A stretch of 39,451 nt of DNA, from the IMG/VR virus record IMGVR_UViG_3300032299_001764, positions 1 to 39,451 of that record; one strand, written 5' to 3'. This document shows positions 25,979-39,451 of the stretch, piece by piece; position 1 is the first letter of the stretch, and every line of letters starts with the position of its first letter. Source of the DNA: a virus. Both the position numbers and the translations under genes were made by a program. The notes under the pieces are model-generated. The model saw only the letters and a program-made list of their open reading frames with translations. It had not been told where the DNA came from and searched no databases.

Positions 25979-27211
25979 TCAGTAAGCCCCCTTCACGGCG
26001 CGGGTTTTGCTTTCCATCCTGCCTTTGATCAGAGGCGCGATGGCGTAGCGGATTGCGTCAATCGCATGGTTGTTTGCGTCGATGATTTCAGGCTTGATGT
26101 CGCCCGTCAGCCTGTCCGTAGCGTGCGAATACAACCGGAACTCACGGGCTGTGCCTGGGCAATCAGGGTGAACGACAATCTTTTCATGGCCCCGCATGTA
26201 GCGGACACCTTCCATCACGCTGTTCGGCCATTTCTTGACCGGCTCGATGCGAGGAAGTCCGTTGCGGGCAAGGTAGCTAATCGTTTTTGGCTCGGCGCTG
26301 TCTGCGCGGGCAGCATATTCAGCAATGCGGGGAAGGCGCTCTTTAATGAAAGCCGTCGTGCCGTCTATTTCGATCCCGGTCTTGTATGCCTCGCGGCGCA
26401 CGTAAAGGCAGTTCGCGTGGATCCAGACCTCAACCGCTGCCAGCGGGTCAGGCCGAAACCCGAAGTCGATCCCGTAATATGGCCCGTCCCAACCGGCACC
26501 CGGCTCGAACTCATCAACGATGAACTTGCCCGAGAACACCTGCGCTTCGGTGAGGGTGAGGAAAGCCCCCTCCCATACGTGTTCGTAAGTCTCGGGCCTT
26601 AGCCGCTGATCGTCGAGACGCTCTTGCTCAAGCACCTCGGGAAACCAAGGATTATCCCGCCAGTTAATTTGCGTGACAATGCAATTGCTGGGCGGGTTTT
26701 CGATGAAACGCCGATGCGTTGCGCTCTCAGGGCTTTCCGGGTTGTAGCTCACCCAATTCTCTGACCCGCCCTCACGGATCGTCGGGATCAGCTTTCGCCA
26801 AGCACCCTCCGAAACACCCTCGCCTTCATCTGTCCAATTGAGCAGAATGCGGGCTTTGGACTTGATGCTGTCGAGATTGTGCCGCAACCCAGCGAACGCA
26901 TAAGACACGCGCCGGTTTTTCGTGCGGACGTACTTTTCGCCGATCTCGTAATAGTCGTGCAACCAAGGCTCAGACCGGATTGCCGCCTTGATTTCCTCAA
27001 GCGAACTTTCGTCCAGTGAGTTGAGGTGTTCGCGCGATGCCAGGATGACACCCTCGCGACCTTCCTCAGCAAACTGATACCCCTTGACCGCTGTCATCTT
27101 CGCAAGACTGCGAGTTTTGCCAGAACCGCGCCCGCCGTGGAAAACGCGGTGTCTTGCCGGCTGCGCAAAATTAGCGATGATCTTGGGCGGCAGTTCTAAC
27201 TCAATCTCCAT
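25979..27211 (-). CDS. Terminase large subunit (PBSX type)
   Basis: A 410-aa packaging ATPase-nuclease. Walker A GGRGSGKT at 26-33, Walker B ILLNWTDE with Asp128-Glu129, and nuclease acidic residues in YGIDFGFRPDP, RADSAEP and the final NNHAIDAIRYA motif. The pattern matches Terminase_3/PBSX-type enzymes, usually headful (pac) packagers, though this should not be read as proof of pac ends. It overlaps the small subunit gene by 11 nt. Confidence 0.95.
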   Translation of the reverse strand: MEIELELPPKIIANFAQPARHRVFHGGRGSGKTRSLAKMTAVKGYQFAEEGREGVILASREHLNSLDESSLEEIKAAIRSEPWLHDYYEIGEKYVRTKNRRVSYAFAGLRHNLDSIKSKARILLNWTDEGEGVSEGAWRKLIPTIREGGSENWVSYNPESPESATHRRFIENPPSNCIVTQINWRDNPWFPEVLEQERLDDQRLRPETYEHVWEGAFLTLTEAQVFSGKFIVDEFEPGAGWDGPYYGIDFGFRPDPLAAVEVWIHANCLYVRREAYKTGIEIDGTTAFIKERLPRIAEYAARADSAEPKTISYLARNGLPRIEPVKKWPNSVMEGVRYMRGHEKIVVHPDCPGTAREFRLYSHATDRLTGDIKPEIIDANNHAIDAIRYAIAPLIKGRMESKTRAVKGAY

Positions 27212-35089: not shown

Positions 35090-35439
35090 GCCGCCCTCCC
35101 TATCTGCGCCATCGCGTGTTCGACGGCTTTGCGGGTGCGCCCAAGGATGCTGGCAATCTCGGCATGGGTAAGCCCCGCCTTTGCCAGTGCGAACACGCGT
35201 TGCTTTTCGCGCTCTGTCCAACGGGTGTGATGACTGCGGCGGATGCCCCAATATTGGATTTTGCTTTCGATGGTCATGCGTGACGCACCGAACAGCAAAG
35301 CTATCTCGCTAGGCGAAACGCCCTTTTCATAGAGTGCGGCGATGCGGTCATCTTCTTCGCGCGTCCACTTGCGCCGCTTAACGCCGCCCGTGGTTAATGC
35401 GCCATCGCGGGACTGCGCTGCGATCAGGGGCGCGTTCAT
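35086..35439 (-). CDS. Double HTH protein (GcrA/Myb-like)
   Basis: A 117-aa protein with two similar DNA-binding units: KWTREEDDRIAALYEKGVSP (about residues 24-43) and RWTEREKQRVFALAKAGLTH (about 73-92), each followed by an EIAxxxG turn and a basic recognition-like helix. The first unit resembles the GcrA N-terminal HTH of alphaproteobacteria. It may regulate phage or host genes. It is coupled by ATGA to the methyltransferase and by GTGA to the nuclease. Confidence 0.82.
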   Translation of the reverse strand: MNAPLIAAQSRDGALTTGGVKRRKWTREEDDRIAALYEKGVSPSEIALLFGASRMTIESKIQYWGIRRSHHTRWTEREKQRVFALAKAGLTHAEIASILGRTRKAVEHAMAQIGRAA

Positions 35440-36302
35440 GCGCGATCTCCCGTATAGGGCGCGTCATGGGACACGTTCTGCAAAGGGTTGGGGGAGACGC
35501 GGGGATCAAACGCCTCCCCCGCCGCACACGCTCGGGAGGGGCGCGCGGTGCGGCTGTCTTGAAGGGCGGCAAGAATTGCGCGGCCAATCAGTTCAGGGAT
35601 TTGGGGGACTACGGCGTTTCCGAGGGCTGCAATTCTGTGTGTGTCTCTGGGAAGCCCATGAGCTTCTCGACAAACGAAGGATTGATCCAGCCTGTCAGGC
35701 CAGCATCCCCAAGCACTTCTTCCAAGTTCCCCTGTGGTGAGCGCCGTTTCCAGCACTTGTTCCACATTATTTTCCGCGGGGTAGGCAACAATCCACACAC
35801 GTTCTCGACGCTGCGGAGCGCCAACGAAGGCCGCAGGAATGTTTTCCCATTCCGCATTATACCTGATGCCGGCCAAGTCTCCGAGAACTCGGCCAAACCA
35901 TCCGCCTGGCCGTTCACTTGGGCCAGCAAGCAGGTTTGCGACGTTCTCCACGATGATGTATCGTGGTCGAAGACTGCTAGTAAGACGGACGATTTCGCTC
36001 CAAAGCCCGCTTCGCGTGCCTTCTGCAACGCCCGCCTGTTTTCCTGCACAGCTAACATCTTGGCAGGGAAATCCACCTGTGATGACATCAATGCTGGCAA
36101 TTCCATCGGCAGCAAGTCGCTCTGCGGTAAGGGTGCGGACATCATCGTAGCAGGGGACATCGGGCCAGTGCTTGGCGAGGACTTTGCGCGGGAACGCTTC
36201 GATTTCGCAGAAGGCGACGGTTTCGAAACCGCCTGTTCGTTCAAGGCCAAGGCTAAACCCTCCGATGCCAGAGAAAAGATCGAGGACGCGAAGCTTGGTC
36301 AT
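35436..36302 (-). CDS. C5-cytosine DNA methyltransferase
   Basis: A 288-aa m5C methyltransferase with motif I LDLFSGIGG (8-16), catalytic GGFPCQ with Cys80, ENV at 119-121, QRRERVW at 164-170 and the late ALGNAVVPQ motif. Only about 55 residues separate QRRERVW from the last motif, so the target recognition domain is very short. No partner restriction enzyme is present, so it is an orphan enzyme that may protect phage DNA from host restriction or alter gene control. ATG 36302 overlaps the Cro-like stop. A second long open frame lies inside it. Confidence 0.93.
   Translation of the reverse strand: MTKLRVLDLFSGIGGFSLGLERTGGFETVAFCEIEAFPRKVLAKHWPDVPCYDDVRTLTAERLAADGIASIDVITGGFPCQDVSCAGKQAGVAEGTRSGLWSEIVRLTSSLRPRYIIVENVANLLAGPSERPGGWFGRVLGDLAGIRYNAEWENIPAAFVGAPQRRERVWIVAYPAENNVEQVLETALTTGELGRSAWGCWPDRLDQSFVCREAHGLPRDTHRIAALGNAVVPQIPELIGRAILAALQDSRTARPSRACAAGEAFDPRVSPNPLQNVSHDAPYTGDRA
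35609..36250 (-). CDS. Possible overprinted ORF inside the methyltransferase gene
   Basis: A 213-codon open frame, shifted +1 relative to the methyltransferase. From about SSQVDFPAKMLAVQE onward it carries a string of motifs: FDHDTSSWRTSQ, AEFSETWP, SGIMRNG, LLPTP, INPSFVEKLMGFP and HTEL. I recall this string, in this order, from a stand-alone phage protein family often near C5 methyltransferases. The frame opens with a TTG; an internal ATG before SSQVDF is a more natural start, with weak GGA upstream. It may be expressed, or it may be the fossil source of that family. Confidence 0.4.
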   Translation of the reverse strand: MALNEQAVSKPSPSAKSKRSRAKSSPSTGPMSPATMMSAPLPQSDLLPMELPALMSSQVDFPAKMLAVQENRRALQKAREAGFGAKSSVLLAVFDHDTSSWRTSQTCLLAQVNGQADGLAEFSETWPASGIMRNGKTFLRPSLALRSVENVCGLLPTPRKIMWNKCWKRRSPQGNLEEVLGDAGLTGWINPSFVEKLMGFPETHTELQPSETP

Positions 36303-36514
36303 GCTGCGCGCCCCCACGGCTCAATCTGTTCAAGCATCACAATTTGCTCGTCGGACAAATCGGCAATCAGCGAATGCCGCCAGCCCGTTTTGCGCATGAT
36401 GTGGATTGCCAGCGCCCGCGACGGTTGCCGGGCGCCAGAGACGATTTCGTTGGCATAGGAGCGAGAAATGCCCGCAGCTTTTGCCAGATCGGAATATCGG
36501 GGTGCATCGTTCAT
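36299..36514 (-). CDS. Cro-like HTH regulator
   Basis: A 71-aa protein with a compact HTH: YSDLAKAAGISRSYANEIVS, then RQPSRALAIHIMRKTGWRH. It is the first gene of the leftward early operon and faces the CI-like gene across a 94-bp divergent region, so Cro is the natural reading. No strong ribosome site precedes ATG 36514; an in-frame ATG at 36532 lies inside an operator copy. ATGA overlap couples it to the methyltransferase. Confidence 0.82.
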   Translation of the reverse strand: MNDAPRYSDLAKAAGISRSYANEIVSGARQPSRALAIHIMRKTGWRHSLIADLSDEQIVMLEQIEPWGRAA

Positions 36515-38322: not shown

Positions 38323-38648
38323 TCACGCCTGCGCCTGATCGCCCCTTCAGCCCGCAGACCCTCGCCCAGCGCTGGGGTTGCAGCGCCGAGAAGGTGCGGA
38401 CTATGTGCAAGAACGGCGAACTGGCGAGCTTCACGCTCGGCAAGCTGATTCGCATCCCGGCGCATGAGGTCCAGCGGTACGAGTGTCAGACTACACCCTC
38501 ACCAGACACCGCGGCAAATGGGCCCTCACCTTTGCCGACGGCCATCGCCGCCGCCGAATCTCGACTGGCGCGGATGATGAACGCACCGCCGAAACCATCG
38601 CTCGTGCCATCTGGGCCCGCCTCACCGCGGCGCGAAGCGAACGGCTAG
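38319..38648 (+). CDS. xis: Excisionase-like HTH protein
   Basis: A 109-aa protein starting at GTG 38319 (GTGA overlap). Residues 8-55 form a MerR/HTH_17-type unit: SPQTLAQRWGCSAEKVRTMC, then LGKLIRIPAHEVQRYE. Such proteins beside an integrase are excisionases or recombination directionality factors. The C-terminal half (56-109) is Pro/Ala-rich and is encoded in the 166 bp shared with the integrase gene, so only the HTH part may be under selection. Confidence 0.8.
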   Translation: MITPAPDRPFSPQTLAQRWGCSAEKVRTMCKNGELASFTLGKLIRIPAHEVQRYECQTTPSPDTAANGPSPLPTAIAAAESRLARMMNAPPKPSLVPSGPASPRREANG

Positions 38649-39451
38649 ACGATCTATGGCCCGCCTACGTCAGGGACAGGGTGCAGGACGGCGCGCGGGC
38701 CGACAGGTTCAAGGCCCACTGGACGGCGCTGGCCCCCGCCTTTGGCAACCGCGTCGGCAGCGCGATCACCCGCGAGGATTGCCGCGCCTATTATCGCGAG
38801 CGCAAGGCGAAGGGGTACAGCGACAGCACGATCCGCACTGACCTCGAACTGCTGCGCGCCTGCATCCGCAAGCATTATGGCAGCGCCGCCCCGTCGCTAT
38901 GGATTCCGCCAGCATCAAAGCCGCGCGATCATTGGCTGACAAAGGAGCAGGCCCGCCAGTTGGTCGATGCAGCCACCACACCGCACATCAGGCTATTCCT
39001 GATCCTCGGCCTGTCCACGGGCGCGCGGGCGGGGGCGATCCTAGACCTGACATGGGATCGGGTGGACTTCGCAGCGGGATCGGTCGATTACAGGCCCACA
39101 GGACGCAACCAGACAAACAAGCGGCGCACAGTGGTGCCGATGAATGCCGTTGCCAGAGAGGCGCTTTCCGAGGCGTACAAGGCCCGTTTGAGCGATCATG
39201 TCGTGGAGTACGGCGGCAAGCCGGTTGGCAGCGTGAAGAAGGCCACCCAGCGCCTAGCCGAGCGCACCGGCATCCCCTTCTCGCCGCATGTCCTGCGCCA
39301 CACCTGCGCTGTTTGGATGGCCCAGGACAACGTGCCGATGCAGATGATCTCGCAGTACCTGGGGCATACCTCGACCCGCGTGACAGAGCAGGTCTATGCC
39401 CGGTACAGCCCCAGCTTCATGCGCGATGCCAGCGCCGCGACGGTGTTTTGA
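38483..39451 (+). CDS. int: Tyrosine-family integrase
   Basis: A 322-aa site-specific recombinase. An N-terminal segment (1-50) and SAM-like core-binding domain (about 55-140) precede the catalytic domain with Arg182 (STGARAG), Lys213, His269 and Arg272 (SPHVLRHT), His295 (LGHT) and the nucleophile Tyr305 (VYARY). All key residues are present. The start is GTG 38483, inside xis in another frame, with a weak ribosome site. The stop is the last base of the window; attP would be expected just beyond it. Confidence 0.92.
   Translation: MSDYTLTRHRGKWALTFADGHRRRRISTGADDERTAETIARAIWARLTAARSERLDDLWPAYVRDRVQDGARADRFKAHWTALAPAFGNRVGSAITREDCRAYYRERKAKGYSDSTIRTDLELLRACIRKHYGSAAPSLWIPPASKPRDHWLTKEQARQLVDAATTPHIRLFLILGLSTGARAGAILDLTWDRVDFAAGSVDYRPTGRNQTNKRRTVVPMNAVAREALSEAYKARLSDHVVEYGGKPVGSVKKATQRLAERTGIPFSPHVLRHTCAVWMAQDNVPMQMISQYLGHTSTRVTEQVYARYSPSFMRDASAATVF

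Follow-up and report, generated by a model that had tools for sequence, protein, structure and literature searches.

Can one stretch of phage DNA encode two proteins in two frames of the same strand, and what would the second protein do? Whether bacteria and phages have long overlapping genes on the same strand is disputed. The window, by which we mean the whole 39,451-base stretch of DNA that was analysed, is an IMG/VR virus record. Its terminase (25979-27211) and integrase (38483-39451) mark it as a temperate tailed phage. It carries a C5 cytosine methyltransferase gene, here called alpha, and within that gene a long open frame shifted by +1, which contains the frame called beta (Table 1). 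Alpha also has an internal ATG at 36302, from which the product has 288 aa. An earlier reading of the sequence alone (the sequence-only reading) had described the 213-codon frame and a series of motifs in it, two of which were placed over conserved methyltransferase motifs; the length, the offset, the order of the motifs and both overlaps agree with the coordinates. It had also proposed that these motifs belong to a stand-alone phage protein family that arose by reading the methyltransferase gene in another frame. Of the few neighbouring genes scanned, none was recognised as coding for a restriction endonuclease.

Table 1. Features of the methyltransferase locus in the window
Feature	Position	Strand	Remarks
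Alpha, C5 cytosine methyltransferase gene	35436..36317	minus	GTG start; PF00145
+1 open frame, 213 codons from TTG	35609..36250	minus	offset +1 relative to methyltransferase
Beta, likely coding extent	35609..36106	minus	ATG 36106 (165 aa) or ATG 36088 (159 aa)
N-terminal conserved block of beta, FDHDTSSWRTSQ...SETWPASGIMRNG, over alpha motifs VI-VIII	35846..35971	minus	both frames constrained
FDHDTSSWRTSQ, beta frame	35936-35971	minus	
AEFSETWP, beta frame	35870-35893	minus	
SGIMRNG, beta frame	35846-35866	minus	
LLPTP (beta) over RVWIVAYP (alpha)	35777-35791 over 35778-35801	minus	
LMGFP (beta) over AHGLP (alpha)	35648-35662 over 35649-35663	minus	
Single PTP cassette (LLPTP...), putative target-recognition segment	35684..35791	minus	cassette pairs in relatives
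NPSFVEKLMGFP, motif IX in beta frame	35648..35683	minus	absent from alpha; L138 alignment
Motif X (GNAVVPQIPELIGRAI), alpha frame	35574..35621	minus	alpha-only codon signature there in relatives

Alpha matches PF00145 (2.7e-41) over residues 10-188 only and TIGR00675 above the family cut-off, and it carries the C5 methyltransferase motifs I-VIII and X, including PCQ (IV) and ENV (VI). Motif IX and the small domain, which belong to the single-chain enzymes, are absent from the alpha chain. The alpha profile aligns with residues 8-181 of M.HhaI and then, weakly, with residues 293-318 (motif X, -0.2 bits); the stretch it skips, 182-292, holds the recognition domain and motif IX. The beta frames contain at least one PTP cassette followed by NPxWVEWLMGFPxGW, and in the window motif IX lies in the small chain and motif X in the large chain. 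The beta profile aligned with canonical motif IX in the right place, but the match was weak (p 0.028, probability 1.8%). The identification of the beta motif as motif IX is by position, because of the M.HhaI alignment and of the arrangements in L138, L151, mycobacteriophage Anthony and L021 described below.

In the window alone, 3 stops in the +1 frame compare with 3.4 expected from synonymous shuffles (p=0.56), which is not significant. The comparative set consisted of 80 viral loci collected with the methyltransferase frame as the only bait, and in the null model synonymous codons were shuffled within each gene so that the methyltransferase protein and the codon usage were kept. In these loci, chosen by the alpha frame, 324 stops were observed in the +1 frame over the whole domain versus 530 expected. 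From the PCQ motif to motif X the depletion was 8-fold (26 versus 217 expected in 70 loci); in the same stretch of 14 canonical C5 methyltransferases there was no depletion (162 versus 147 expected). Neither the +2 frame nor either of the two antisense frames that shuffling can test showed a depletion of stops. The codon-aligned antisense frame is set by codon counts and hence lies outside the shuffle test. An antisense open frame of 353 aa is found opposite the methyltransferase in the window (plus strand, 35397-36458). Codon usage fixes its stop count and accounts for its openness, and it was not supported as coding.

Residues of the +1 frame are conserved as well. In 22 non-redundant loci, conservation exceeded that of the shuffles with z of 10.6 over alpha residues 65-98, 18.9 over 99-180 and 23.2 over 181-240, and upstream of beta z was only 2.9. 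The strongest sites were W of SETWP, P of LLPTP, and NP, E, L, M, G and P of NPxWVEWLMGFP. The synonymous shuffles thus revealed constraint on the +1 frame beyond that of the methyltransferase frame, both in stops and in residues. As judged from sequence comparison, both frames are under selection; the evidence is overwhelming, and it comes from the relatives and not from the window alone. A selected second frame, for a putative polypeptide, is therefore present inside the alpha gene on comparative grounds, as in enzymes of the M.EcoHK31I type.

Codon-position substitutions in the relatives divide the gene into zones. Alpha residues 10-62 are coding in alpha only, residues 100-181 in both frames, the PTP cassettes in beta only with the alpha frame largely unconstrained, and the motif X region in alpha only. 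Cassette pairs with 75-85% DNA identity have an amino acid identity of 0.80 in beta, 0.55 in alpha and 0.51 in the unused third frame, and within cassettes position 3 of the beta codons has about three times as many substitutions as positions 1 and 2. The gene order is that of an ordinary C5 methyltransferase, with motifs I-VIII, recognition segment, IX and X, of which the recognition segment and motif IX have moved to the second frame. The C-terminal half of beta, where the PTP cassettes are followed by NPxWVEWLMGFP, is the small domain of the enzyme itself, set in the +1 frame, and true overprinting is limited to the N-terminal part of beta, over motifs V-VIII. The proposed origin of the family from a methyltransferase gene read in another frame thus stands in that both frames are selected and the family is indeed a shifted reading of that gene, but it does not apply to this C-terminal half.

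Each beta has 1-5 PTP cassettes, and the window has one. The cassettes fall into recurrent discrete types, each found in up to 28 loci. Among similar cassette pairs, 154 of 263 occur in proteins whose beta N-terminal parts are less than 50% alike, a count that includes some N-terminal stretches picked up by the PTP pattern and some overlapping copies of one contig. A clean case of sharing is the pair L077 and L091, in which a cassette is 80% alike over 51 residues and the N-terminal parts are 17% alike. The PTP cassettes behave like target-recognition domains, and from this we infer that they take part in recognition.

The distribution of beta was examined in phages and in cellular genomes. 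A tblastn search with the +1 frame gave matches in 118 phage records, and beta of the window matched PHROG 1008 (6e-19). A phage family of this kind therefore exists, as the sequence-only reading had proposed, but its description as stand-alone is wrong, because in all six matched records that were examined beta is located, in whole or in part, in the +1 frame of a methyltransferase gene. Members of PHROG 1008 such as Anthony gp79 begin within the methyltransferase gene. A profile made from a closer subset of beta sequences, because the first beta alignment was too diverse, found 246 relatives in 84,980 bacterial and archaeal species genomes and at least 595 in viral contigs. The best 80 of the 246 and the best 80 viral relatives were analysed; these 160 beta-selected loci include a few contigs already in earlier sets. 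As labelled, the genome relatives come from Proteobacteria, Actinomycetota, Bacillota, Bacteroidota, Synergistota and others. In 159 of the 160 loci an alpha gene overlaps beta, which lies in its +1 frame; only L125 differs, and none of the 160 contains a free-standing beta. L021, which belongs to an earlier set selected by the shadow frame, is a second exception. Since the overlap is so general and the exceptions are frame-changed pairs, the proposed family is the nested beta frame annotated as a gene. In the public annotation of the Microcystis phage Mwe-JY08 (L001, 392-652), a hypothetical protein covers just the C-terminal part of beta, and no alpha gene is listed across this stretch.

Several relatives show other architectures. 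In L138 (uncultured alphaproteobacterium) and L151 (Candidatus Bandiella numerosa), the alpha frame has LNPDWVEWLMGFP immediately before GNAVVP, and the +1 beta is reduced to the N-terminal part and the PTP cassettes (L138 2777-3767, L151 2653-3769). The L138 chain aligns without gaps, at a low score, with motifs IX-X of M.HhaI (LHPRECARVMGYP...GNSVV). These two loci are a third architecture, with IX and X contiguous in alpha and the cassettes in the +1 frame; they are not ordinary single-chain enzymes, as beta is still present in +1. In Anthony and L021, beta bears both IX-like and X-like text, and Anthony gp79 begins inside gp80 and extends beyond its end. These arrangements indicate that motifs IX and X move between frames. 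Motif X in the small chain, as in M.AquI, was found only in L003 and L021, and not in the window. In L016-L020 (for example L016, alpha 631-2257), alpha runs about 260 codons beyond beta before motif X, and this extension contains more PT(A/P)..DHK-like text in the alpha frame.

We consider it very probable, from the anatomy and comparison of the sequences, that beta is the target-recognition and motif-IX subunit of a two-chain C5 methyltransferase of the M.EcoHK31I kind, with alpha as the catalytic domain. This two-chain mechanism, built on anatomy, selection and precedent, is the best explanation of the constrained +1 frame, the division of motifs between the frames and the coding zones. Alpha, in frame 0, would be the large catalytic domain with SAM binding, the PCQ catalytic cysteine, ENV and motifs VIII and X. 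Beta, nested in the alpha gene in +1, would be the small domain, made up of the overprinted N-terminal segment, the PTP cassettes and motif IX. It would be translated from an internal start and would bind alpha to complete the enzyme. The PTP cassettes would then recognise the DNA target and so set the methylated sequence, and methylation would presumably protect or mark the phage DNA.

The start of beta probably lies inside the TTG frame, where the nearest ATGs are at 36106 and 36088, because the +1 frame of relatives often has stops upstream of alpha residue ~65. In the region that has to contain the beta start, +1 start codons paired with a Shine-Dalgarno sequence number 94 in the relatives versus 49 expected; the excess peaks at alpha residue 101 (16 versus 3.4 expected), and the start site varies between groups of relatives. 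Neither ATG of the window has a strong ribosome-binding site. This would suit a different explanation, in which beta has no start of its own and is made as a fusion to alpha motifs I-IV by a programmed or hard-wired frame change. L021 (2278-3292) and L125 (2664-3402) encode such fusions, having alpha motifs I-IV in one frame with beta and a frame change within the alpha/beta pair near alpha residues 95-115, and this change could be a natural variant or a sequencing error. The twofold excess of starts with Shine-Dalgarno sequences argues against fusion as the general route. The known relatives M.AquI and M.EcoHK31I are described as two polypeptides (PMC3404938). We therefore regard a fusion as unlikely.

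Beta might instead be an overprinted protein unrelated to the enzyme, such as a regulatory or anti-restriction factor, which came to lie in a methyltransferase gene by chance. Beta indeed has no recognised fold or domain: AlphaFold2 models of beta alone were poor in two runs (pLDDT 61 and 65, pTM 0.30 and 0.34), and Foldseek found no structural match to the predicted models. A sequence search of the PDB with the beta profile returned only chance matches, to glycolipid transfer protein. However, the domain missing from alpha is exactly what beta supplies, the beta motif shifts into alpha beside motif X in L138 and L151, and beta occurs without alpha in 0 of 160 loci, so that an unrelated protein is very improbable. 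A GC-rich chance open frame, its similarity a by-product of methyltransferase conservation, would fit the lack of significant stop depletion in the window alone, but it is refuted by the comparative data, by the stop depletion that canonical methyltransferases lack and by the conservation of residues like the W, L, G and P of SETWP and LMGFP above the shuffle null by z ~12-16, and its probability is negligible.

If beta is the recognition subunit, these loci would form a large class of overlapping genes, mostly without annotation, and specificity in this class would evolve through the exchange of cassettes in the second frame. It seems reasonably likely that in phages and many bacterial phyla the catalytic domain is encoded in one frame and a swappable, multi-cassette recognition subunit in the other, and that motif IX, in some cases together with X, moves between them. 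The overlap is typically 140-290 codons long, is strongly selected in both frames and occurs in hundreds of loci, and it can therefore serve as a positive control for methods that detect overlapping genes. Among phage methyltransferases that carry an annotation as complete, many are probably only half an enzyme; tests of the activity or specificity of the annotated gene alone could therefore fail. In the PTP cassettes there is a code of target recognition that can be put to the test.

The small-subunit gene of M.EcoHK31I is said, after the 1995 work of Lee et al., to lie inside the large-subunit gene in another frame, and M.EaeI is reportedly alike. A protein in a second frame of phage C5 methyltransferase genes is also known from the ShiLan element, an out-of-frame HNH endonuclease (PMC11855218). 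That element is a homing insertion, whereas beta of the window is a proposed enzyme subunit, and no HNH-like frame was seen in the alpha gene of the window. Two relatives have an HNH-endonuclease-like frame directly after beta, out of frame within the alpha gene, with cysteine pairs and AHHIDQN...CKHCH (L057 2620-3040 and L071 3308-3734, 0-based, alpha +1), and these frames resemble insertions of the ShiLan type (PMC11855218). PHROG 1008 and PHROG 26627, annotated as "DNA methyltransferase" and as unknown, match beta of the window and its relatives; they treat beta as a separate gene, whereas beta and the alpha gene overlap in the loci examined. No description of a nested methyltransferase subunit in phages was found in the literature searched, which was mostly open-access.

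The sequence-only reading knew of no published account of such an arrangement, but M.EcoHK31I is a precedent (Lee et al. 1995, as cited in PMC3404938). What is new here is the breadth of the distribution, the proof of constraint, the placing of the putative recognition cassettes in beta and the frame-swapped variants. In M.AquI (CYCGRG) the small chain has motifs IX-X and the break is at the variable region (PMC3404938). This split resembles that of Anthony gp80/gp79 and L021, where IX and X are in beta; unlike M.AquI, the window keeps motif X in alpha, and its beta lies wholly within the alpha gene. M.EcoHK31I (YGGCCR), compared here by its published description, shares the layout of the window, with motifs I-VIII and X in the large subunit and motif IX alone in the small one (PMC3404938). 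Its recognition domain was predicted in the large subunit (PMC3404938), whereas in the window family the DNA between motifs VIII and X codes in beta, and many relatives have several PTP cassettes. If the proposed role of beta is correct, the recognition domain of M.EcoHK31I would have been assigned to the wrong subunit.
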